Shown: positions 26,492 through 36,451 of the stretch, piece after piece | Layout of the letters: every line of letters starts with the position of its first letter | How positions within the stretch are numbered: the stretch's first letter is position 1 | From: Bradyrhizobium ottawaense | GTDB taxonomy: Bacteria > Pseudomonadota > Alphaproteobacteria > Rhizobiales > Xanthobacteraceae | Reading direction: 5' to 3' | DNA: 64,000 bases | Assembly: GCF_900099825.1 (NCBI RefSeq) | Contig: NZ_LT629693.1 | Location: 6,707,001-6,771,000 of the forward strand | The notes under the pieces: generated by a model | Seen by the model: only the letters and a program-made list of their open reading frames with translations | What the model was told of the DNA's origin: nothing | Database searches by the model: none | Position numbers and translations under genes: made by a program

Positions 26492-26780
26492 GGACGTCTC
26501 CCCCGTGACCTCAGCCGTTGAACCGGCTTTCAAGGTTCGTTTGCAGCTTCGCTTTGGTTGTGTTTGTTAGCCTATCCGAAAGCGGTGCGTCCACAAGCGG
26601 CGCTTCGAGCGAAGCTTTATCCACGCTTTGATCGCGGGTTCGGAAACGCTACTAACCCTGCTAACTGACTTGAGAATTCCGCACGGTCTTGCGAAAGCGG
26701 CGGGATCGTCAGGTTTTGAATCGCGCGCCTCGCGCGTTGAGTCAAAATCCTTGCTCGTTGAATCAGAAAGTGAAGTGAGA

Positions 26781-27986
26781 ATGTCCGGTTCGGGCACCGA
26801 TAAAACCAAGTCTGGTTTGGACTTAGCCGGACCTGTTGTGATTCTTGTCGAGCCGCAGCTCGGCGAGAATATCGGCATGGCCGCGCGGGCGATGGGCAAC
26901 TTCGCACTCTCGCGTTTAAGAATCGTCAATCCGCGCGACGGCTGGCCGAACATCGCGGCGCAACGCGCGGCGGCCGGCGCCGACCAGATTCTGGAGCAGG
27001 CGCAATTGTTCGACACGGTCGAGCAGGCGGTCGCCGATCTGACGCTGCTGTTTGCGACCACCGCGCGTGCCCACGACCAGGCCAAGCCGGTGGTCGCGCC
27101 GGCGGAAGCCGCCGGCGAGATCGCGACGCATGCGGCCAGCGGAGGTGGGGTCGGCATCCTGTTCGGCCGCGAGCGTTACGGACTCCAGAACGAGGAGGTC
27201 GCGCTCGCCAACCGGATCATCACCTTTCCGGTCAACCCGGGTTTTGCGTCGCTCAACCTGGCGCAGGCGGTGCTGCTGATCGGCTATGAATGGTTCAAGC
27301 TCTCGACCGGCGGCGCGTTGCCGTTCGCGATGCCCGAACATTCCGAGCGCGCCTCCCAGCACCAGATGCAGGCTTTCTTCGACAACCTGATCCGGGAACT
27401 CGACAAGGTCGAATTCCTGCGCCCGCCGGAAAAGCGGGAGACCATGCTGGTCAACCTGCGCAACATTTTTACGCGGATGGACCCGACCAAGCAGGACATG
27501 CATACTTTGCATGGGGTTGTTATGGCGATTGCCGAAGGCCGCAAAGGTCCGGCCAAGGGCGGCGTGCTCGACGGCGAACAGGCGACCCGGCTGCGCGCGC
27601 TGCTGGCCGAGCACGGGCAGGGCGCGGCGGCGCCCGGCGACAACAGCACGGTTCGCGGGCTGGCCCGGCTGCTGCGGCGCAACCCGACCGACGCCGAGCG
27701 GATCCTGTGGCAGGCACTGACCCGCGACCGCCGGTTCGCCGGACAGTTCAAGCGGCAGACGCCCGTCGGCCGCCACATCCCAGATTTCGTCTCCTTCGTG
27801 CACCGGATCGCGATCGAGCTGGTCAACGCCCACGAGTCGGAGGCCATCGTTGCCGACCGTGCCGGCCGAAGGGCATGGCTGGAAGCGCGCGATTACCGGG
27901 TGGTCGAGATGGCGGTGGCCGACGTCGAGCGCGACCTCGATGGCGAACTCGCGCGGCTGGAGGCCAGCCTTCGGCAGGCGAGTTAG
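26781..27986 (+). CDS. trmJ: TrmJ/SpoU-type RNA methyltransferase fused to a DUF559 domain
   Basis: A 401-residue protein of two parts. Residues about 15-170 form the SPOUT methyltransferase (PVVILVEPQLGENIGMAARA, GILFGRERYGLQNEE, PGFASLNLAQAVLL), which methylates tRNA or rRNA 2'-O positions; a helical dimerisation tail follows to about residue 265. Residues about 290-395 resemble DUF559, a Vsr/restriction-type nuclease fold (TDAERILWQAL, GRHIPDFVS, RRAWLEARDYRVVEM). The normally acidic VEVDGGQH motif reads IELVNAHE, so nuclease activity is doubtful. The TrmJ call is by family; TrmH-like specificity cannot be excluded. The ATG at 26781 is close to GTGAGA. Confidence 0.85.
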   Translation: MSGSGTDKTKSGLDLAGPVVILVEPQLGENIGMAARAMGNFALSRLRIVNPRDGWPNIAAQRAAAGADQILEQAQLFDTVEQAVADLTLLFATTARAHDQAKPVVAPAEAAGEIATHAASGGGVGILFGRERYGLQNEEVALANRIITFPVNPGFASLNLAQAVLLIGYEWFKLSTGGALPFAMPEHSERASQHQMQAFFDNLIRELDKVEFLRPPEKRETMLVNLRNIFTRMDPTKQDMHTLHGVVMAIAEGRKGPAKGGVLDGEQATRLRALLAEHGQGAAAPGDNSTVRGLARLLRRNPTDAERILWQALTRDRRFAGQFKRQTPVGRHIPDFVSFVHRIAIELVNAHESEAIVADRAGRRAWLEARDYRVVEMAVADVERDLDGELARLEASLRQAS

Positions 27987-27988
27987 TT

Positions 27989-28030
27989 AGTAGGGTGGGC
28001 AAAGGCGCGTAGCGCCGTGCCCACCACCCA
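27989..28030. repeat. Short dispersed repeat
   Basis: The string tagggtgggcaaaggcgcgt continues into agcgccgtgcccaccaccca: GGGTGGGC pairs with GCCCACC and GGCGCG with CGCC. A common Bradyrhizobium intergenic hairpin following the methyltransferase stop; it may act as a 3' end. Confidence 0.55.
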
Positions 28031-28167
28031 TCCAAACGGTTGTCTTGCATGGTTGGCACGCTTCCGCCTTCGCTCGTTGAGCTACGGCGGACAAGTCGCT
28101 TGGCGTATCCTACGTACCGGACAAAAAAACGCGAAAACAACCCCATGCAAAGTAGAACGGGCGCAAG

Positions 28168-28833
28168 CTAGACCGCCACGAGCTGCGCCGCCGGGCCAGC
28201 GGCCCGTTTCGGCTTCCTCGCCTTGGAAGGTCCGAACAGGTTGCCGGCGGCAAGGCCTGCGGTGTCGGCAACGCCGGGATCGCGGGTCACCATGGCGGCG
28301 ACAATGGCGCCGTCGATCAACAGCGCGAGTTGATGCGCCAGCATTTGCGGCTCGCCCGCGCCCATTTCACCGGCGAGTTTCTCGATATGTGCGAGCACGA
28401 CCTTCTTGTGCTTCAGCGCGATGGCGCGGAACTGCTTGGCGTCCTTGTCATGCTCGCCGACGGCGTTGATGAAGGGGCAGCCGTAGAAACGCTCTTCGGC
28501 GAACCATTGCTTCAATGCTGGAAAGATCCGCGTCAGCTTCGCCTGCGCGTCGCCGCCGCCGGTTTCGATCGATGTGATGAACCATTCGCGCCACTGCTTG
28601 CCCTCGCTTTCCAGCACGGCATGCACCAGGTTGGTCTTCGATCCGAACAATTTGTAGAGCGTGGTCTTCGCGGTGCCGGCTTCGTTGATGATGGCATCGA
28701 TGCCGGTGGCGTTGATTCCGTATCGGCAGAACAGCCGCGTCGCCGCGTTGAGCAGGCGTCCGCGCGCGGATTCCTCGTCGCCTGCGCCATGCGCTGCCGC
28801 GACCGGTTTCTTCTTCGGAACTGATTTGCCCAT
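28168..28833 (-). CDS. TetR-family transcriptional regulator
   Basis: A 221-residue TetR/AcrR repressor. The N-terminal helix-turn-helix reads RLLNAATRLFCRYGINATGI then DAIINEAGTAKTTLYKLFGS. The ligand domain has FYGCPFINAVGEHDKDAKQF, as in the TetR group with C-terminal TetR_C_ regulators often next to OsmC or stress genes. A basic tail (KARKPKRAAGP) ends the protein. It is divergent from the osmC-led cluster, with 226 bases between, and so is a candidate regulator of that cluster; this is inference from position. Confidence 0.85.
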   Translation of the reverse strand: MGKSVPKKKPVAAAHGAGDEESARGRLLNAATRLFCRYGINATGIDAIINEAGTAKTTLYKLFGSKTNLVHAVLESEGKQWREWFITSIETGGGDAQAKLTRIFPALKQWFAEERFYGCPFINAVGEHDKDAKQFRAIALKHKKVVLAHIEKLAGEMGAGEPQMLAHQLALLIDGAIVAAMVTRDPGVADTAGLAAGNLFGPSKARKPKRAAGPAAQLVAV

Positions 28834-29002
28834 GCGCGCCAGTTAATCGAACCGCGGCGCAATCATCAAGCTGCATCTTTGCGCTCAAATTAATCGCGCT
28901 GCCGCGGCAATTGCATCGCGCTTGTGCAACGCGGCGCTGACCGATTTCGAGGCAGAGACAGCTAAGCGGCGAGAGAAGTTCGGCTTTTGGCAAAGCTCGC
29001 GT

Positions 29003-29019
29003 CTGGCACGCTTCGTGCA
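29003..29019 (+). promoter_or_regulatory. Sigma-54 (RpoN) promoter of the osmC-cynS cluster
   Basis: The sequence CTGGCACGCTTCGTGCA matches YTGGCACG-N4-TTGCW at all but one fixed position. GG at 29005-29006 and GC at 29017-29018 are separated by exactly 10 bases, as -24/-12 promoters require. Transcription would start near 29030, leaving a 30-base leader with GGGAGAG at 29051 before osmC. Such promoters need an enhancer-binding protein (NtrC, SfnR or similar); its gene is not in the window. Confidence 0.7.
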
Positions 29020-29059
29020 GGAAACAGACCGTTCGGTATCCTACCCCCTAGGGAGAGAA

Positions 29060-29605
29060 ATGATGACCGCGGTCGCACAAAAAACAGTACTCACAGGCTG
29101 CCTGGCTCCGATCGACAAGAACGGGCTGGAACAGCTGATTGCCAACGGCAAGGCCAATCCGAAGGTCATCAAGACCTTGAAGTGCAAGACGGTGGCGGAA
29201 GGCAAGTTCCGTCACGCCAACTACATCCGCAACCTCGCGCCCTATATCGTCGACGAACCGCCGGGCCTGCTCGGCGACGACACCGCGCCCAATCCGTCGG
29301 AAGCCTCGCTCGCGGCACTCGGTTCCTGCCTCGCGGTCGGCCTTCACGCCAATGCCGTTCACCGCGGCTGGATCGTCAACAAGCTCGAACTCGAGCTCGA
29401 AGGCGACCTCAACATCACAGCGGTCTGGGGCACCGGCGACGTCAGCGAGAAGCCGGTCGGCTTCACCGACGTCCGCGTCAAGGTCGACATGGAATGCGAG
29501 GGCGTTCCGAAAGCCGAGATCGATGCGCTGGTGGATCACGTCAAGAAGTGGTCGCCGGTCGCCAACACCTTTACCCGCCCGGTCAATCTCGAAGTCAGCG
29601 CTTAA
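29060..29605 (+). CDS. OsmC-family protein
   Basis: A 181-residue OsmC-like protein. The ATG pair at 29060/29063 follows GGGAGAG. The conserved reactive cysteine is in ASLAALGSCLAVGLHANA, and a second cysteine, in KTLKCKTVAEG, lies upstream. OsmC/Ohr proteins reduce organic hydroperoxides or bind sulfur species with a cysteine pair. The spacing here fits the OsmC-like rather than the Ohr branch. First gene of the sigma-54-led cluster, 36 bases before the flavoprotein gene. Confidence 0.85.
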   Translation: MMTAVAQKTVLTGCLAPIDKNGLEQLIANGKANPKVIKTLKCKTVAEGKFRHANYIRNLAPYIVDEPPGLLGDDTAPNPSEASLAALGSCLAVGLHANAVHRGWIVNKLELELEGDLNITAVWGTGDVSEKPVGFTDVRVKVDMECEGVPKAEIDALVDHVKKWSPVANTFTRPVNLEVSA

Positions 29606-29641
29606 GCAGCCACGACAGCCAAACGGGGTGCGGAGGGTTTC

Positions 29642-30766
29642 ATGGGTTCATTGGCGGTATCCAGGCTCGCGGTTGACGACGTCCTGCCATCGGCATCGAT
29701 CGCCGATCAGGTCGCCGTCATCGCGCGCAAGAACCTCGCACCCCAGGCGGTGGCGATCGACGAAGGCACAGTTTATCCCGACGAGTTGCTGCGGCGGCTT
29801 GGCGACGTCGGGGCTTGGGGCAGTCATCAGCCGGAGAATGGCGCAGCCGACCTGCGCTGCGCCATTCAGTCGATCGCAGCACTCGGCGAAGTCTGCGGCG
29901 CCACCGCCTTCATGGCGTGGTGCCAGAACACGCTGGTCTGGTACGCGTCCAACTCGGACAATCCCGCGCTCGTCGCCAAATTCGCGGAAAAATTTGCCTC
30001 GGGGCAAATTCTCGGCGGTACCGGTCTCTCCAATCCGATGAAGAGCTTCTTCGGCATCGAGAAGCTCAAACTGAAGGGACGCAAGGTCGAGGGCGGTTAT
30101 GTCGTCAAGGGCGCGCTGCCCTGGGTCTCCAATCTCGGTCCCGACCATTATTTCGGCACCATCTTCGAACGCGAGGATGAGCCGGGCAGCATCGTGATGT
30201 TCCTGGCCGATTGCTCCAATCCCGGGATCACCCTGCAGCCGTGCAAACCGTTTCTCGCCATGGACGGCACCGGCACCTATGGCGTGCAGTTCCGCGACGT
30301 CTTCGTGCCGGATGAACTGATCCTAGCCGAAACCGCACGTCCGTTCGTCAAGAAGATCCGCGCCGGCTTCATCCTGCTGCAGGCCGGCATGGGGCTCGGC
30401 CTGATCAAGGATTGCATCCAGATCATGGACGAGGTCGACGCGCCGCTCGGCCACGTCAACCGCTATCTGCCGCAACAGCCGGTGCAGTTTCGCGAGCTGC
30501 ATGCCGAGTTCGAGAAGGAGACGATGGCGCTGGCGCGCGATCCCTACAATGCCGATGACAGCTACTGGCGCCGCGTCGTGGCGCTACGGCTTCGTCTCGG
30601 CGACGCCAGCGTCGCGGCCGCGCATGCGGCGATGCTCCATTGCGGCGCGCGCGGATATCTGAAGAGCCATCGCGCCCAGCGCCGGCTGCGCGAGGCCTAT
30701 TTCGTCGCCATCATCACCCCCGCCACCAAGCAGCTTCGCAAGATGCTGGCAGGCGATGAACACTAG
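29642..30766 (+). CDS. Acyl-CoA-dehydrogenase-like flavoprotein
   Basis: A 374-residue protein of the acyl-CoA dehydrogenase superfamily. It shows the three-domain pattern: an N-terminal helical part, a middle strand domain (GGTGLSNPMKSFFGIEKLKL then KGRKVEGGYVVKGALPWVSN) and a C-terminal helical bundle (RAGFILLQAGMGLGLIKDC). The middle domain's W-V-S-N resembles the FAD-binding region. The usual catalytic glutamate is not obvious, so it may belong to the SfnB/DszC-type flavin monooxygenase group used in organosulfur metabolism rather than fatty-acid oxidation. Its place between osmC and a rhodanese supports that idea. Confidence 0.75.
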   Translation: MGSLAVSRLAVDDVLPSASIADQVAVIARKNLAPQAVAIDEGTVYPDELLRRLGDVGAWGSHQPENGAADLRCAIQSIAALGEVCGATAFMAWCQNTLVWYASNSDNPALVAKFAEKFASGQILGGTGLSNPMKSFFGIEKLKLKGRKVEGGYVVKGALPWVSNLGPDHYFGTIFEREDEPGSIVMFLADCSNPGITLQPCKPFLAMDGTGTYGVQFRDVFVPDELILAETARPFVKKIRAGFILLQAGMGLGLIKDCIQIMDEVDAPLGHVNRYLPQQPVQFRELHAEFEKETMALARDPYNADDSYWRRVVALRLRLGDASVAAAHAAMLHCGARGYLKSHRAQRRLREAYFVAIITPATKQLRKMLAGDEH

Positions 30767-30818
30767 AGGATTTCGGATCGACCACCCACTAGCAACCACA
30801 AAACAGGAGAGGCCTGCC

Positions 30819-31697
30819 ATGACGGACGTGCTGATTTCTGCCGGTGAACTCGCCGAATTCTTGAAGAAGGAACCCTGTGTCGTCATCGACACCCGCAATC
30901 CCGATGCCTACGGCGCCGGACATCTCCCCAACGCCGTCAACGTCCACGAAATCTTCACCTACCTTGCGACCTCGACGCCGGAAGGCATGGCCGAACTGAA
31001 GACGAAGTTCGCCGATGCGTTCGGCGCCGCCGGATTGTCCGGCAAGGAAACCGCCGTCATCTACGAACAGTCGATGAATTCCGGCTTCGGTCAGTCCTGC
31101 CGCGGCTATTACCTCCTCACCATGCTCGGCTATGCCAAGATCAAGGTTCTGCATGGCGGCTACGACGCCTGGGCGGCTGCCGGACTGCCGGTGACGAAAG
31201 ACGTGCCGTCGCCGGTGAAGGCGTCGTTCTCGATCGTGCCTGTGGCAGGCGACATCCTGATCGATGCCAAGACCATGCTGGCCGCTGTCGGCAAGCCCGG
31301 CATCGCGCTGCTCGACGTGCGCGATATCGACGAATGGATCGGCGAAAGCTCCTCGCCCTACGGCAAGGATTTCTGCCCGCGTAAGGGACGCATCCCCGGC
31401 GCGGTTTGGCTCGAATGGTACCGCATGATGAAGCCGACCGCCGAAGGGCCGCGCTTCAAGTCCAAAAACGAGATCCTGGCGGAATGCGCCACCGTCGGGA
31501 TCACCCCGAACACGCCAGTCTATCTCTACTGCTTCAAGGGCGCGCGTGCCTCCAACACCTTCCTCGCTTTGAAGAACGCAGGGGTGAAGGACGTCCGGAT
31601 GTATTTTGGCTCCTGGAACGAGTGGTCGCGCGATCCGTCGCTGCCGATCGAGGAGGGCTTGCCAACGGATGCCCGGATAACAGGCAGGGCGGCATAA
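30819..31697 (+). CDS. Tandem rhodanese (sulfurtransferase)
   Basis: A 292-residue two-domain rhodanese from the ATG at 30819, behind AGGAGAGG. The first domain (VVIDTRNPDAYGAGHLPNAV) lacks a catalytic cysteine. The second (IALLDVRDIDEWIGE) carries the active cysteine C238 in the loop CFKGARAS. Rhodaneses move sulfane sulfur, classically from thiosulfate to cyanide to give thiocyanate. The loop differs from the CRxGxR of thiosulfate:cyanide enzymes, so the acceptor is uncertain. It lies between the flavoprotein and the importer genes. Confidence 0.85.
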   Translation: MTDVLISAGELAEFLKKEPCVVIDTRNPDAYGAGHLPNAVNVHEIFTYLATSTPEGMAELKTKFADAFGAAGLSGKETAVIYEQSMNSGFGQSCRGYYLLTMLGYAKIKVLHGGYDAWAAAGLPVTKDVPSPVKASFSIVPVAGDILIDAKTMLAAVGKPGIALLDVRDIDEWIGESSSPYGKDFCPRKGRIPGAVWLEWYRMMKPTAEGPRFKSKNEILAECATVGITPNTPVYLYCFKGARASNTFLALKNAGVKDVRMYFGSWNEWSRDPSLPIEEGLPTDARITGRAA

Positions 31698-31806
31698 AAC
31701 GTGCATGTTGCTTACGGCCCGGCCAGCAAAGGCCGGGCCGTGAATCAATGACCGGATCGCGGCGGAATGGGACTTCCGCCGCGCCGGTGTGACAAAGGGG
31801 CGCAGC

Positions 31807-33198
31807 ATGTCTACTTTCGATGATCCCTTCGATTCCGACCGCGCGCTTTCGCGGGCCGGCTGCATCTGCGGCCAGCATCGCTCCGCGGCCGAACATGAGC
31901 ATGCGACGCTGGCGCTGCGCTGCGAACCGGTGCCGACCGAGAGTGAGGAAAAACGCTACCAGGGCGTCGTGGCCTCCGCGGTGGTTCGCGCGATGTTTCC
32001 CAGGGATGCCGCGCGCCGCGCCTTTCTGAGATCGGTCGGCGCCTCGACCGCGCTGGCCGCGATCTCGCAATTCTTTCCGATCAAGGCCGCGACCGAAGCG
32101 TTCGCCGACGCCGGGGTGCCCGAGAAAAAGGATCTCAAGGTCGGGTTCATCCCGATCACCTGTGCGACGCCGATCATCATGGCGTCGCCGCTCGGCTTCT
32201 ATGCCAAGCAGGGCCTCAACGTCGAAGTCGTGAAGACCGCCGGCTGGGCCGTGATCCGCGACAAGACCATCAACAAGGAATACGACGCCGCGCACATGCT
32301 GGCGCCGATGCCGATCGCGATCTCGCTGGGACTCGGTGCGCAGCCGATCCCGTTCGCAGTGCCGGCGATCGAGAACATCAACGGGCAGGGCATTACGCTT
32401 GCCATGAAGCACAAGGACAAGCGCGATCCCAAGGACTGGAAGGGCATGAAGTTCGCCATTCCGTTCGACTATTCCATGCACAATTACCTGCTTCGCTACT
32501 ACCTCGCCGAACACGGCCTCGATCCCGACACCGACGTGCAGCTCCGCTCGGTGCCGCCGCCGGAAATGGTCGCCAATTTGCGTGCCGACAACATCGATGG
32601 CTTTCTGGCGCCCGACAACATCTGCCAGCGCGCGATCTATGACGGCGTCGGCTTTCTGCATATCCTGTCGAAGGAAATCTGGGACGGCCATCCCTGCTGC
32701 AGCTTTGCCGCGAGCAAGGAATTCATCACGGGATCGCCGAACAGTTTTGCGGCGCTGACACGCGCCATCGTCGACGCCACCGCCTATGCCTCGAAGGCCG
32801 AGAACCGCAAGCAGATCGCGGAGGCGATTGCGCCTGCCAATTATCTCAACGCCCCGGTCACGGTGCTGGAGCAGGTCCTCACTGGCACCTACGCCGATGG
32901 TCTCGGCGGTATCAAGACCGACGCCAAGCGCGTCGATTTCGATCCGTTCCCCTGGCAGTCGTTCGCGGTCTGGATGCTGACCCAGATGAAGCGCTGGGGC
33001 CAGATCAAGGGCGATGTCGATTACAAGCAGGTCGCCGAACAGGTCTATCTCGCCACCGACACCGGCAAGGTGATGACCGAGATGGGACTGACGCCGCCGT
33101 CGTCCTCGTACAAATCCTTCGCCGTGATGGGTAAGACGTTCGACCCGACCAAGCCGGACGATTATCTGGCGAGCTTCAAGATCAGGAAGGTGACGTGA
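31807..33198 (+). CDS. Nitrate/cyanate-type ABC transporter substrate-binding protein
   Basis: A 463-residue NrtA/CmpA-family binding protein. An unusual 60-residue cytosol-like N-terminus contains CICGQH, then a twin-arginine signal (ARRAFLRSVGASTALA). The binding domain starts DLKVGFIPITCATPIIMASP and contains GFLAPDNICQRAIYDGVGFL. NrtA relatives bind nitrate, nitrite, bicarbonate or cyanate. Cyanase downstream favours cyanate here. The ATG at 31807 follows AAAGGGGCGC. First of three importer genes. Confidence 0.85.
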   Translation: MSTFDDPFDSDRALSRAGCICGQHRSAAEHEHATLALRCEPVPTESEEKRYQGVVASAVVRAMFPRDAARRAFLRSVGASTALAAISQFFPIKAATEAFADAGVPEKKDLKVGFIPITCATPIIMASPLGFYAKQGLNVEVVKTAGWAVIRDKTINKEYDAAHMLAPMPIAISLGLGAQPIPFAVPAIENINGQGITLAMKHKDKRDPKDWKGMKFAIPFDYSMHNYLLRYYLAEHGLDPDTDVQLRSVPPPEMVANLRADNIDGFLAPDNICQRAIYDGVGFLHILSKEIWDGHPCCSFAASKEFITGSPNSFAALTRAIVDATAYASKAENRKQIAEAIAPANYLNAPVTVLEQVLTGTYADGLGGIKTDAKRVDFDPFPWQSFAVWMLTQMKRWGQIKGDVDYKQVAEQVYLATDTGKVMTEMGLTPPSSSYKSFAVMGKTFDPTKPDDYLASFKIRKVT

Positions 33199-33220
33199 GC
33201 GAGGTAACTGCTTCTGCTTT

Positions 33221-33354
33221 GCCTCTCCCCGCGTGCGGGGAGAGGTCGGATGGCGCGCGGCAGCGCGCGATCCGGGTGAGGGGGACTCTCCACGAGCGCA
33301 GTCTGCGGAAGCAGCCCCTCATCCCGACCTTCTCCCCGCAAGCGGGGAGAAGGA
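33221..33354. repeat. Dispersed repeat that supplies a ribosome site
   Basis: Begins cctctccccgcgtgcgggga and ends ttctccccgcaagcggggag; each end is a small hairpin, and the two ends also pair. Elements with this text are frequent between genes in Bradyrhizobium and relatives. The right end, GAGAAGGAG, is the ribosome site of the permease gene starting at 33356. Confidence 0.75.
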
Positions 33355-33355
33355 G

Positions 33356-34195
33356 ATGACCTTCTCTCTCCGCTTTCGCGCCGCCGTGGTTTCGATCGCG
33401 CTGTTCGCAGCGTTCCTCGGCATCTGGCACCTCGCCACGCGCTCGACGTCGGCTGTTGCCACCATGACGCCGGAATACGCCAAGCTGATGGGGCTGACGG
33501 CAACGCAGGGCAAGTCGGCGATGCCGGGTCCGCTCGATGTCGGCGCCAAATTGTGGGAGCACCTCAAGCGGCCGTTTTACGACAATGGCCCGAACGACAA
33601 GGGCCTCGGTATCCAGCTCGGCTATTCGATCGCGCGTGTCGGCCTCGGCTATCTGCTGGCGGTGATCGTCGCGATCCCGCTCGGCTTCCTGATCGGCATG
33701 TCGCCCTTGATCAACAAGGCGCTCGATCCGTTCATCCAGGTGCTGAAACCGATCTCGCCGCTGGCCTGGATGCCGCTCGCGCTCTACACCATCAAGGATT
33801 CCAGCATCTCCGCGATTTTTGTCATCTTCATCTGCTCAGTGTGGCCGATGCTGCTCAACACCGCCTTTGGGGTCGCCGCGGTGCGCAAGGAATGGATCAA
33901 CGTCGCCCGCACGCTGGAGGTCGGCACCGTCAGGCGCGCCTTCACCGTGATCCTGCCGGCCGCGGCGACGACGATCCTGACCGGCATGCGCATCTCCATC
34001 GGGATCGCCTGGCTCGTGATCGTCGCGGCCGAGATGCTGGTCGGCGGCACCGGCATCGGCTACTTCGTCTGGAACGAGTGGAACAACCTCTCGATCACCA
34101 ACGTCATCATCGCCATCCTGCTGATCGGGGTCGTCGGCATGTTGCTCGACCAGGTGCTGGCGCGCTTCACGCGCCTGGTCACGTTTCCGGAATGA
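33356..34195 (+). CDS. Nitrate/cyanate-type ABC transporter permease
   Basis: A 279-residue inner-membrane permease of the NrtB/SsuC/TauC type. It begins MTFSLRFRAAVVSIALFAAF and has about six spans. The coupling loop EWINVARTLEVGTVRRAFTV (EAA motif) contacts the ATPase. The start at 33356 lies six bases after GAGAAGGAG; a longer frame from 33233 runs through the repeat and is rejected. It stops seven bases before the ATPase gene. Confidence 0.9.
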   Translation: MTFSLRFRAAVVSIALFAAFLGIWHLATRSTSAVATMTPEYAKLMGLTATQGKSAMPGPLDVGAKLWEHLKRPFYDNGPNDKGLGIQLGYSIARVGLGYLLAVIVAIPLGFLIGMSPLINKALDPFIQVLKPISPLAWMPLALYTIKDSSISAIFVIFICSVWPMLLNTAFGVAAVRKEWINVARTLEVGTVRRAFTVILPAAATTILTGMRISIGIAWLVIVAAEMLVGGTGIGYFVWNEWNNLSITNVIIAILLIGVVGMLLDQVLARFTRLVTFPE

Positions 34196-34202
34196 CCCTG
34201 AC

Positions 34203-35159
34203 ATGACCGACAAGTTCATTTCGATCGAAGGTATCGCGCGGCGCTATCCCGGCGTCGATGGGGCTACCACCACGATCTTCGAAAACCTGTGGCTGTCGAT
34301 GGGACGCGGCGAATTCGGCTGCGTGATCGGCCATTCCGGCTGCGGCAAGACCACGGTGCTGAACATTCTGGCCGGCCTCGACCAACCGAGCGAAGGCACG
34401 GTCATTGTCGACGGGCAGGCGATCGAGGGCACCAGCCTCGACCGTGCCGTCATTTTCCAGAGCCATGCGCTGTTGCCGTGGCGCACGGTGCTCGGCAACG
34501 TCGCCTATGCCGTGACCTCGAAATGGCGCAACTGGGACCGCGCCAAAGTGAAGGCCCACGCGCAGACCTTTATCGACCTCGTGGGCCTGACCGGCTCGGA
34601 GCACAAGCGCCCATCCGAACTGTCGGGCGGCATGAAGCAGCGCGTCGGCATTGCGCGTGCGCTCTCGATCACGCCAAAAATCATGCTGATGGACGAGCCG
34701 TTCTCGGCGCTCGATGCGCTGACCCGCGGGACGCTGCAGGACGAGGTGCGGCGGATTTGTCTGGAGACCGGCCAGACCGCCTTCATGATCACCCACGATG
34801 TCGATGAAGCGATCTATCTCGCCGACAAGATCTTCCTCATGACCAATGGCCCCGGTGCCGTGCTGGCCGAGATCGTCGAAAATCCGCTGCCGAAGGACCG
34901 CGGCCGCATCGATCTGCACCGCCACCCCTATTACTACGCGCTGCGAAATCATATCGTCGATTTTCTGGTCAGCCGCAGCAAGACCTTTACCGCCACCGTG
35001 ACCAACCACGACCCCCGCAACGTGCCGACGGTGCGGCCTGGTCTGCCGGATCTGGCGATTGCGTCGGTAGGAGATGATTCAAGGCAGGCGTCATGGCCGG
35101 GCATAGCAGGCGCAGACTGCGTAAACTTGTCTGCGTCCCGGCCATCCACGTCTTCCTAG
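34203..35159 (+). CDS. Nitrate/cyanate-type ABC transporter ATPase
   Basis: A 318-residue ATPase. Walker A is GHSGCGKTT, the signature is LSGGMKQR, Walker B is IMLMDEP, and the H-loop is MITHDVDEA. It energises import by the permease at 33356. The last 25 or so residues (DDSRQASWPGIAGADCVNLS...) are encoded by the intergenic repeat at 35090-35215 rather than by family sequence, so the gene has read into the repeat after losing its own stop. Homologues usually end near the VRPGLPDLAIA region. Confidence 0.92.
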   Translation: MTDKFISIEGIARRYPGVDGATTTIFENLWLSMGRGEFGCVIGHSGCGKTTVLNILAGLDQPSEGTVIVDGQAIEGTSLDRAVIFQSHALLPWRTVLGNVAYAVTSKWRNWDRAKVKAHAQTFIDLVGLTGSEHKRPSELSGGMKQRVGIARALSITPKIMLMDEPFSALDALTRGTLQDEVRRICLETGQTAFMITHDVDEAIYLADKIFLMTNGPGAVLAEIVENPLPKDRGRIDLHRHPYYYALRNHIVDFLVSRSKTFTATVTNHDPRNVPTVRPGLPDLAIASVGDDSRQASWPGIAGADCVNLSASRPSTSS

Positions 35160-35215
35160 ACTGAACAAGAAAAGACGTGGATGCCCGGGACAAGCCCGGG
35201 CATGACGGGTGCCAA
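35090..35215. repeat. Dispersed palindromic repeat invading a gene end
   Basis: Starts tcatggccgggcatagc and ends gcccgggcatgacggg, with inner pairs acgtctt/aagacgt and cagactgcgtaaa/tttgtctgcg-like arms. It is of the same type as the element after recA. Its left part is translated as the tail of the ATPase; cyanase starts 12 bases after its right end. Confidence 0.7.
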
Positions 35216-35226
35216 GGAGACGACAC

Positions 35227-35715
35227 ATGAAACGCGAAGACCTCACTGAAAAGCTGCTCGACATCAAGCGCGAGAAGGGCTGGAGCTGGAAGCACATCTG
35301 CGAAAAGATCGGCGGCTATTCCGAGGTGCTGATAACAGGCGCCATTCTCGGCCAGATGAAATTGACAAAACCGCAGGCCGCCAATGCGGGTGAATTGTTC
35401 GGGCTGTCGAAATCCGAGACCGCGATGCTGAACGAGGTGCCGATGCGCGGCACCGGCACGCCGATGCCGCCGACCGATCCCTTGATCTACCGCTTCTACG
35501 AAATGGTGATGGTCAACGGCCCGGCCTGGAAGGCGCTGATCGAGGAGGAATTCGGCGACGGCATCATGTCGGCGATCGATTTCGACATGGTGATGGAGCG
35601 CGTCGCCAATCCGAAGGGCGACCGGGTCAAGATCTCGATGTCCGGAAAATTCCTGCCGTACAAGTATTACGGCGCCAGCGGCAACGTGCCGGAATACGGG
35701 TTCAAGGAGGAGTAG
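35227..35715 (+). CDS. cynS: Cyanate hydratase (cyanase)
   Basis: A 162-residue cyanase. The catalytic triad of E. coli CynS (R96, E99, S122) is present at R89, E92 (YRFYEMV) and S115 (GIMSAIDF), all shifted by seven. The N-terminal helix-turn-helix-like domain is complete (MKREDLTEKLLDIKREKGWS). The enzyme converts cyanate and bicarbonate to carbamate and CO2, releasing ammonia. The ATG at 35227 follows CCAAGGAGACGAC. It closes the importer gene cluster. Confidence 0.97.
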   Translation: MKREDLTEKLLDIKREKGWSWKHICEKIGGYSEVLITGAILGQMKLTKPQAANAGELFGLSKSETAMLNEVPMRGTGTPMPPTDPLIYRFYEMVMVNGPAWKALIEEEFGDGIMSAIDFDMVMERVANPKGDRVKISMSGKFLPYKYYGASGNVPEYGFKEE

Positions 35716-35720
35716 CGGTC

Positions 35721-35807
35721 ACGTCATTCCGGGGCGCGTCGCAGACGCGAACCCGGAATCTCGAGATTCCGGGTTCGCGCTTCGCACGCCCCGGAATGAC
35801 GACAGGC
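35721..35807. repeat. Dispersed palindromic repeat
   Basis: An almost perfect long hairpin: cgtcattccggggcgcgtcg at one end, cgccccggaatgacgacagg at the other, and cccggaatctcgagattccggg in the middle. Sits between the convergent cynS and ATPase-inhibitor genes and could end transcription from both sides. Confidence 0.75.
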
Positions 35808-35808
35808 C

Positions 35809-36132
35809 TTACGTCCCCGCCTTCACCTGCGTGACCGCGAGTGCCATCAGCTCGTCCATCTTGACGCGGATCTGCTGCTCGCTGAGGGCGACGCCCTTGG
35901 CCGTGATATCGCCCATCACCTTGCTGAGCACGTCGCCGTCGCCGGCTTCCTCGAAATCGGCGGCAACCACTTCCTTGGCGTAGGCGGTGGCGGCATCGCC
36001 GGTAATTCCGAGCTTTTCAGCCACCCATTGCCCGAGCAGCTTGTTGCGGCGCGCCTCGGCCTTGAATTTCAGCTCCTCGTCGAGGGCGAACTTCTTCTCG
36101 AAGCCTTCCTCGCGCTTGTCGAAAGTGGTCAT
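35809..36132 (-). CDS. ATPase inhibitor zeta subunit (DUF1476)
   Basis: A 107-residue protein beginning MTTFDKREEGFEKKFALDEE, the characteristic start of the alphaproteobacterial zeta subunit, which inserts its N-terminal helix into F1 and blocks ATP hydrolysis. The remaining four-helix part (LKFKAEARRNKLLGQWVAEK, then LGITGDAATAYAKEVVAADF) is full length. The start at 36132 matches the family; the frame to 36195 is not part of it. Confidence 0.9.
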   Translation of the reverse strand: MTTFDKREEGFEKKFALDEELKFKAEARRNKLLGQWVAEKLGITGDAATAYAKEVVAADFEEAGDGDVLSKVMGDITAKGVALSEQQIRVKMDELMALAVTQVKAGT

Positions 36133-36451
36133 TTCTGTGGTTCCAATCCCGGCAAATGGTAAACGCGGTCGCATTGCGGCGGTCCGCTCGCACACCTAGA
36201 TAGAGGCGGCGAATCGGCAAAACAACGAGCCGTTAAGCCGCAGGGCAACCGGTATAAGTTGGGCCCAACCGGGCCGGATCGATTGTGCTGGATAGGCCAA
36301 TCAGGTAGGTTGCCCCCAGGTCAGGTTCTTGTTCTGTTTCCAGTGCTTGTATTCGAGTTCCCGGCCTTCACGGCAGCTCCGTCGTGGTCGTAACCCTTGT
36401 CATCCGGAGCACACCAAATTCATGGATTTCAACAAAACACGGTACATCCCA

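Follow-up and report, generated by a model that had tools for sequence, protein, structure and literature searches.

Two bacterial routes of thiocyanate breakdown are known, one with a copper and one with a cobalt enzyme. Thiocyanate, a plant breakdown product and mining pollutant (PMC5744179), is converted to cyanate and elemental sulfur in Thioalkalivibrio and Afipia by thiocyanate dehydrogenase, a periplasmic copper oxidoreductase, and the Afipia cyanate is predicted to be consumed by a cyanate hydratase (PMC5744179, PMC8061750). Thiocyanate hydrolase also uses thiocyanate, but is a cobalt-containing homologue of nitrile hydratase and gives carbonyl sulfide (COS) (PMC5744179). For cyanate, the closest described system is cynFABDS of Pseudomonas pseudoalcaligenes CECT5344, in which genes for a binding protein, permease, ATPase and cyanase lie behind a sigma-54 promoter and a divergent sigma-54 activator gene; CynF is essential, a putative sigma-54 site precedes cynA, and cyanate induces and ammonium represses expression (PMC6627978). 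A related cluster is found in a 64,000 nt stretch (the window) of the 8.34 Mb genome of Bradyrhizobium ottawaense (G000; loci are numbered L, genomes G). It is made up of two joined functional modules: genes for an OsmC-like protein, a flavoprotein resembling acyl-CoA dehydrogenases (ACADs) and a rhodanese (module 1), and a CynABD importer with cyanase (module 2). The gene set is real, conserved and sigma-54 controlled, its linkage and promoter being well supported, and it is probably also under TetR control.

Gene content and conservation in the genus

The seven genes lie on the + strand. Module 1 consists of the OsmC-like gene (29060–29605; PF02566, 2.7e-19), the flavoprotein gene (29642–30766; ACAD domain PF02771 over its cut-off at 3.3e-7, PF02770 below cut-off) and a two-domain rhodanese gene (30819–31697; PF00581, 2.1e-35). 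These are followed by genes for a substrate-binding protein of the CynA/NrtA/CmpA family (31807–33198; PF13379, 3.5e-80), an NtrB/CynB-type permease (33356–34195; TIGR01183, 225.8 bits, cut-off 209.05), an NtrC/D- or CynD-type ATPase (34203–35159; TIGR01184, 285.2 bits, just below the cut-off of 291.8) and the cyanase CynS (35227–35715; over the cut-offs of NF002773 and TIGR00673; 219.8 bits, cut-off 150); the genome has no second match to PF02560. Sequence, gene calls and domain matches agree in content and coordinates with an earlier note, made from the sequence alone, that had read the same genes behind a sigma-54 motif. The cyanase R/E/S triad that it described as intact, residues whose catalytic roles we assume, aligns with that of the solved cyanase 7o74. 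The note knew of cyanate importers with cyanase and called the addition of osmC, a flavoprotein and a two-domain rhodanese new. Module 1 is uncharacterised: no description of OsmC and flavoprotein with either rhodanese or rubredoxin reductase was found in the open-licence literature searched. The importer and cyanase are the known cynABDS, and the set is two modules, not a single new operon of seven genes.

Comparison of 26 loci of the genus (the window, L038–L061 and L174) showed the genes to be conserved together, a check that the earlier note had proposed for Nitrobacteraceae. The order of a divergent TetR-family gene on the − strand and OsmC, flavoprotein and rhodanese genes on the + strand was constant in all 26. 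In 12 loci the binding protein, permease, ATPase and cyanase genes come directly after rhodanese, and in 11 an opposite-strand gene for a CynF-like activator with PAS and sigma-54 activator domains stands between rhodanese and binding protein (two of these 11 regions end before cynS). In the remaining three, L038 (which ends inside the binding protein gene), L040 and L044, the rest of the cluster was not seen in the fetched stretch. The run of seven same-strand genes described by the note is thus true of the window, and across the genus is contiguous in only 12 loci and interrupted by the activator gene in 11.

Module 2 has the same gene order as cynFABDS, and the divergent sigma-54 activator gene is matched in the 11 loci just named. 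The window differs in that a cynF-like gene is lacking and no good sigma-54 site precedes the binding protein gene, and its cyn genes come after OsmC, flavoprotein and rhodanese. In 8 of 10 aligned binding proteins, including those of the window, L193 and L194, about 60 residues (encoded within 31807–32000) with a CxCGxH motif stand ahead of what we take to be a twin-arginine-like signal. The spacers before the permease (33199–33355) and cyanase (35075–35226) are palindrome-rich and resemble dispersed repeats.

Linkage of the flavoprotein to cyanase

The best named relatives of the window flavoprotein locus are mostly from Bradyrhizobium, and strong matches to the protein were found in 25 of 36 genomes of the genus, its own included. 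Beyond the genus, matches were found at E ≤ 1e-60 in 3 of 385 genomes sampled across the class and at E ≤ 1e-50 in 24 of 398 sampled across the phylum, 16 of the latter above 350 bits. At E ≤ 1e-90, family f26 has matches in 25 of its 199 genomes, and family f214, which we guess to be Burkholderiaceae, in 36 of its 299.

Module 1 is tied to cyanase far above chance. The distance from the flavoprotein gene to a cynS gene is 12 kb or less at 25 of 38 f214 loci, where about 0.1 would be expected by our own arithmetic, and at 11 of 25 f26 loci. By genome, the flavoprotein (36) and cyanase (122) occur together in 28 members of f214 against 14.7 expected (Fisher 1.8e-6), and in f26 the corresponding figures are 25, 71 and 20 against 8.9 (Fisher 1.7e-6), both values being inflated by kinship. 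The linkage outlasts changes in gene order, orientation and importer, and L033, L180 and L219 keep cynS with an ABC importer of another type.

The recurrence was followed on a tree of the flavoprotein. The set for it left out 15 repeat loci (L063, L200–L213) and the rows whose flavoprotein was weak or short; a further cut removed 18 of 24 genus loci, L188 and L189, leaving 74 of 94 rows, and L065–L144 were not in the tree. Adjacency to cyn genes changes at least 8 times on it, 4 of the changes being forced by well-supported branches. Where cynS is near, a sigma-54 site is found at the operon head in 31 of 37 cases, and where it is not near, in 3 of 30; in two of these three, L245 and L247, the distance to cynS is about 17 kb. 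For these tests no cyn state was given to seven rows, and L177 and L243 were scored 'cyn' by hand (10.9 and 9.6 kb).

Module 1 occurs in three contexts. The first, as in the window, is TetR, OsmC, flavoprotein and rhodanese, often with a cyn module and sometimes with a DsbA-like gene (L031, L218, L219, L223). The second consists of a GAF sigma-54 activator, OsmC, flavoprotein and a rubredoxin-linked reductase, to which rhodanese or a metallo-beta-lactamase protein is often added, and here the cyn module may lie before, after or facing the flavoprotein cluster. The third has a different ABC importer together with OsmC or an AhpD-like CMD protein. The motif CxxCxxxH is retained by 8 of 8 CMD proteins, and the one that was scored falls near the cut-off of a peroxidase-related model and above that of the AhpD core domain. 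Rhodanese and metallo-beta-lactamase proteins are recurrent sulfur-handling partners; the Caballeronia metallo-beta-lactamase protein has its best match to a sulfur transferase/dioxygenase model, at 104.3 bits far below the cut-off of 625, and a TauE sulfite exporter adjoins one cluster only (L216).

In a Neisseria record (L062), its close relative L179 and a Moraxella plasmid (L036), the flavoprotein is paired with a CMD protein, and L062 and L036 add rubredoxin reductase; mucosal habitats are rich in thiocyanate. The flavoprotein copies of L149 (G744) and L231 (G846) each contain one in-frame TGA. Genome G1144 has two flavoprotein loci (L236 and G1144:C12), one with a CMD protein and the other importer type, the second with cynS about 5 kb away.

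Sigma-54 promoter and TetR regulator

The −24/−12 promoter TGGCACGCTTCGTGCA (29004–29019, +) lies upstream of OsmC. Within the 64 kb window, TGGCACN6TGCW has a single match against 0.21 expected, with 19 of 100 shuffles containing one, and YTGGCACN5TTGCW with one mismatch has three, including the promoter, against 0.97 expected. Because such single-genome statistics are too weak alone, the promoter was tested by comparison between loci. Of 105 loci (the window, L038–L061, L065–L144), 104 had OsmC and 103 had enough upstream sequence, giving 93 distinct regions. TGGCACN6TGC[AT] was present in 91 of these, 51–69 nt before the OsmC start (the two without it are L045, which has TGGCAT instead, and L084), so the motif counts as real.

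An enhancer-like dyad, TGC-N11-GCA (28912–28928 in the window, unstranded), accompanies the promoter in 87 of the 91 regions and lies exactly 92 nt before the −24 TGG in 75 of them; shuffled sequences gave a mean of 10.3 and a maximum of 18. The dyad resembles what we take to be NtrC sites. The operon thus has the conserved −24/−12 element and the enhancer-like site that mark sigma-54 control.

In a study of rpoN in Bradyrhizobium sp. DOA9, the OsmC promoter is listed with a predicted RpoN box of the TGGCACGCTTCGTGCA type, and expression of the OsmC gene and cynS is lower in rpoN mutants (PMC13207237). A gene called fatty-acid metabolism (BRADOA9_v1_50926) is also down in the mutants, and a nitrate/nitrite-type binding protein (BRADOA9_v1_50923) has an RpoN box, TGGCATGCTCCTTGC, at −36 (PMC13207237). 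Boxes identical to these two precede the OsmC and binding protein genes elsewhere, for example at L047, and the DOA9 tags appear to be neighbours in the order seen in the window. In the parts of the study examined, its authors do not handle these genes as one pathway (PMC13207237). The DOA9 data and the 91 regions support the sigma-54 promoter proposed by the earlier note, which had asked whether conserved copies keep the −24/−12 motif.

In more distant loci the motif tracks the first gene of the operon, whether this is OsmC or rhodanese (rhodanese in L177, L239, L242, L243, L245, L246, L250–L253). At one threshold, sites were found before OsmC in 52/88 cases, binding protein in 21/56, rhodanese in 10/51, cyanase in 5/55 and PAS activator in 4/20, with few or none before TetR (2/47), flavoprotein (1/105), other-type ATPase (1/28), permease (0/53), ATPase (0/56), other-type binding protein (0/30), rubredoxin reductase (0/42) and CMD (0/18); the counts include some loci fetched twice (e.g., L200 and L214). 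A sigma-70-type scan of 28000–36300 gave 0 matches (1.5 expected), and terminator-like sites in the same interval were not above chance (5 against 6.7).

All 11 activator-bearing genus loci have a good sigma-54 site of their own before the binding protein gene (score 19.5–20.2), where the PAS-type activator fits the known place of CynF. A separate promoter at this point is what the earlier note had named as evidence against its reading, and a single promoter for all seven genes across the genus is rejected for these loci. In the window, the best candidate before the binding protein is a weak, degenerate −24/−12-like stretch, CGGCATAAAACGTGCA (31690–31705, +), which scores 17.2 of 21.2, is equalled in 3 of 20 shuffles and is perhaps a relic of a cyn promoter. 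Since the window genome also has no match to the PAS activator gene at E ≤ 1e-100, the cyanate genes of this strain may depend on the OsmC promoter, to judge from the sequence, despite an intervening strong inverted repeat (31714–31741, unstranded) seen in the sequence and fold of the rhodanese/binding protein spacer; the repeat lacks a T run and is not listed by the terminator scan. The PAS activator was rejected as a general driver of the OsmC promoter, because the window genome is without it and four others (G001, G012, G014, G054) carry it but show no strong match to the flavoprotein.

Just 3′ of the −12 element lies a palindrome, ACAGACCGTTCGGTAT (29024–29039, unstranded), which is the probable operator of the divergent TetR-family gene (28168–28833, −; PF00440, 4.6e-13) and is predicted to cover the transcription start. 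All 16 positions pair in 26 of 26 genus loci, and 0 of 100 shuffles were as good. In related TetR loci (L173, L176, L218, L219, L224–L227, L233), 13–16 of 16 positions pair (0 of 100 shuffles each), the palindrome beginning 18–21 nt past the TGG except in L173, where it is on the other promoter side, and L233, which has no sigma-54 match there. It was not found in TetR clusters with the other importer (L032, L034, L063, L180, L181, L220, L222, L228, L229), where 10–12 of 16 positions pair and 6–92 of 100 shuffles were as good, and that of L242 is not convincing (12 of 16; 8 of 100). The sigma-54 promoter is apparently gated by a TetR protein at its start site. The TetR gene, palindrome, dyad and inverted repeat were all absent from the earlier note.

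Candidate substrates and known thiocyanate systems

Aligned by eye, the flavoprotein has Thr-Pro in 10 of 10 members where the ordinary ACADs L258 and L262 have EGT (L257 has AGT but GLDYE, and L259 DGT), and a gap at the GLDxE site where the isovaleryl-type L257 has GLDYE. As we assume the catalytic Glu to lie in one of these two motifs, the flavoprotein appears to be without it. Its best solved relatives are ACADs (≤86.3 bits). Enzymes of the DszC/SfnB type, presumably also of ACAD fold without dehydrogenase function, offer a likeness. These monooxygenases differ from the window protein in that its DszC match is weak (29.9 bits) and the SfnB model is absent among its NCBIfam matches. In OsmC, Cys90 of a GxC motif is invariant in 12 of 12 aligned proteins, and the resolving position is Ser in all 12, as in 2opl (9wo1 has Cys). 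The lack of a resolving cysteine argues against an ordinary peroxide-stress role, one of the tasks that the earlier note had given OsmC. The C-terminal domain of the rhodanese keeps the active loop C238-FKGAR in 7 of 7.

From these genes we infer, tentatively, that thiocyanate is turned into cyanate and sulfane sulfur by flavin and thiol chemistry. Thiocyanate is the simplest substrate, since one product suits cyanase and the other suits rhodanese, metallo-beta-lactamase proteins and, in one case, TauE. The reduced flavoprotein would oxygenate or oxidise SCN−, and the single reactive cysteine of OsmC would accept the sulfur as a mixed, sulfenyl-thiocyanate-like adduct, from which loss of cyanate would leave a persulfide whose sulfur rhodanese would pass on. 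In module 2, CynABD would take up or recapture cyanate, and CynS would hydrolyse it to ammonia and CO2. Expression would call for sigma-54 with an enhancer-bound activator, probably conveying a nitrogen-limitation signal, and for the TetR repressor to be off the start site, presumably through a ligand; this activator, ligand and binding of TetR to the palindrome are likewise what we infer. The earlier note suggested that the flavoprotein and rhodanese could free these two products from a compound resembling thiocyanate or an organosulfur compound; for thiocyanate, the idea is favoured, though not proven, by the cyanase linkage kept in several gene orders.

A broader proposal, made with somewhat less confidence, is that OsmC (or an AhpD-like CMD protein) and the flavoprotein form a third biological route of thiocyanate breakdown, spread across Proteobacteria and represented by a distant relative on a plasmid of a cyanobacterium. 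This route would have two modes because the substrate yields both nutrients: a nitrogen mode with sigma-54, cyanase and cyanate importer, and a sulfur mode with a sulfonate-type importer and neither sigma-54 site nor adjoining cyanase. If true, a widespread flavin/thiol route would offer an explanation of how thiocyanate might serve rhizobia and other Proteobacteria, and would give a function to an ACAD-like family without a name and to a one-cysteine OsmC subfamily.

A number of observations weigh against the thiocyanate route. Thiocyanate is deduced from two fates only, cyanase and sulfur transfer, and no activity for the flavoprotein or OsmC was found in the literature examined. The window binding protein is 73, 72 and 60% identical to those of stand-alone cyn modules (L193, L194, L197); being indistinguishable from stand-alone CynA, it may import cyanate, not thiocyanate. 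Window-type clusters show no visible flavin reductase, unlike those with rubredoxin reductase, and the PAS activator is missing from the window genome, as noted above. The linkage is also incomplete: cynS is more than 25 kb off or absent from the contig at 11 of 38 f214 loci (8 in genomes without any), 14 of 25 f26 loci have none near (5 in genomes without any), and L176 has module 1 and a sigma-54 site with no cynS in the 17 kb fetched. The 5 of 55 cynS upstream regions that attain the sigma-54 threshold themselves count here too, and the association of cyn genes with sigma-54 sites was not significant on independent pairs (5 usable; mean 2.2 the same way, 0 opposite, p 0.5).

A somewhat less likely reading is that module 1 attacks some other organosulfur or organonitrogen compound, such as a sulfonate, sulfone, isothiocyanate or thiocarbamate, and adjoins cynABDS because both are sigma-54 nutrient-scavenging units. 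The binding protein of the alternative importer resembles aliphatic sulfonate-binding proteins (TIGR01728, 97.9 bits, cut-off 163.5), 25 of the 74 tree rows have this importer without cynS near, and with its activator cynABDS stands alone on plasmids of Bosea, Methylobacterium and Loktanella. That L033, L180 and L219 keep cynS beside the other-type importer is not, however, accounted for by shared scavenging alone.

A start from cyanide is improbable. Rhodanese would here form thiocyanate from cyanide and sulfane sulfur, the flavoprotein and OsmC would turn it into cyanate, and cyanase would finish a detoxification or an assimilation of cyanide. Rhodanese is indeed present in the cluster, and the cyn module of Loktanella, without flavoprotein, adjoins nitrogen-starvation genes that we take to be of the Nit1C kind. 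A role in cyanide metabolism is described for Nit1C (PMC11049912). Several cyn-linked clusters (L224, L225, L064) are, however, without rhodanese.

Least probable is a thiol or peroxide stress system, made up of OsmC and flavoprotein, that adjoins the cyanate genes by accident: OsmC and AhpD-like CMD proteins do substitute for each other next to the flavoprotein, and the DOA9 authors label the OsmC gene as oxidative-stress associated (PMC13207237), but OsmC lacks the resolving Cys and cynS lies within 12 kb at most f214 loci, far more than the chance figure given above.

The thiocyanate route would share its products, cyanate and sulfur, with the thiocyanate dehydrogenase pathway, and would differ in using a flavoprotein with OsmC instead of a periplasmic copper enzyme (PMC5744179, PMC8061750). 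The flavoprotein has no evident signal peptide, although no test aimed at signal peptides was made, and no copper thiocyanate dehydrogenase is among the cluster products, no model of that enzyme having been used for the genome elsewhere. Two other genes were considered as the thiocyanate enzyme of this genome and were not supported. The only SBP56-family match has methanethiol oxidase as its one NCBIfam match, at 102.8 bits far below the cut-off of 650. The only match to the nitrile hydratase alpha family (PF02979) scores as nitrile hydratase (307.2 bits, cut-off 249.85) and falls below the cut-off for the thiocyanate hydrolase gamma subunit (182.7 bits, cut-off 291.45).

Synechococcus elongatus reportedly uses thiocyanate as a sulfur source, although no statement of this was found in the open-licence literature searched. 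Its plasmid pANL encodes a distant relative of the flavoprotein (L037, 27–28% identity) beside an ABC importer, as in module 1 clusters. This differs from the window in having no OsmC or cyanase adjoining, and it forms a long branch in the flavoprotein tree. The plasmid carries many sulfur-related genes (PMC8049743).

Elsewhere in the window, a single open frame (26628–27986, +) fuses a TrmJ/SpoU-type RNA methyltransferase with a C-terminal DUF559 domain.

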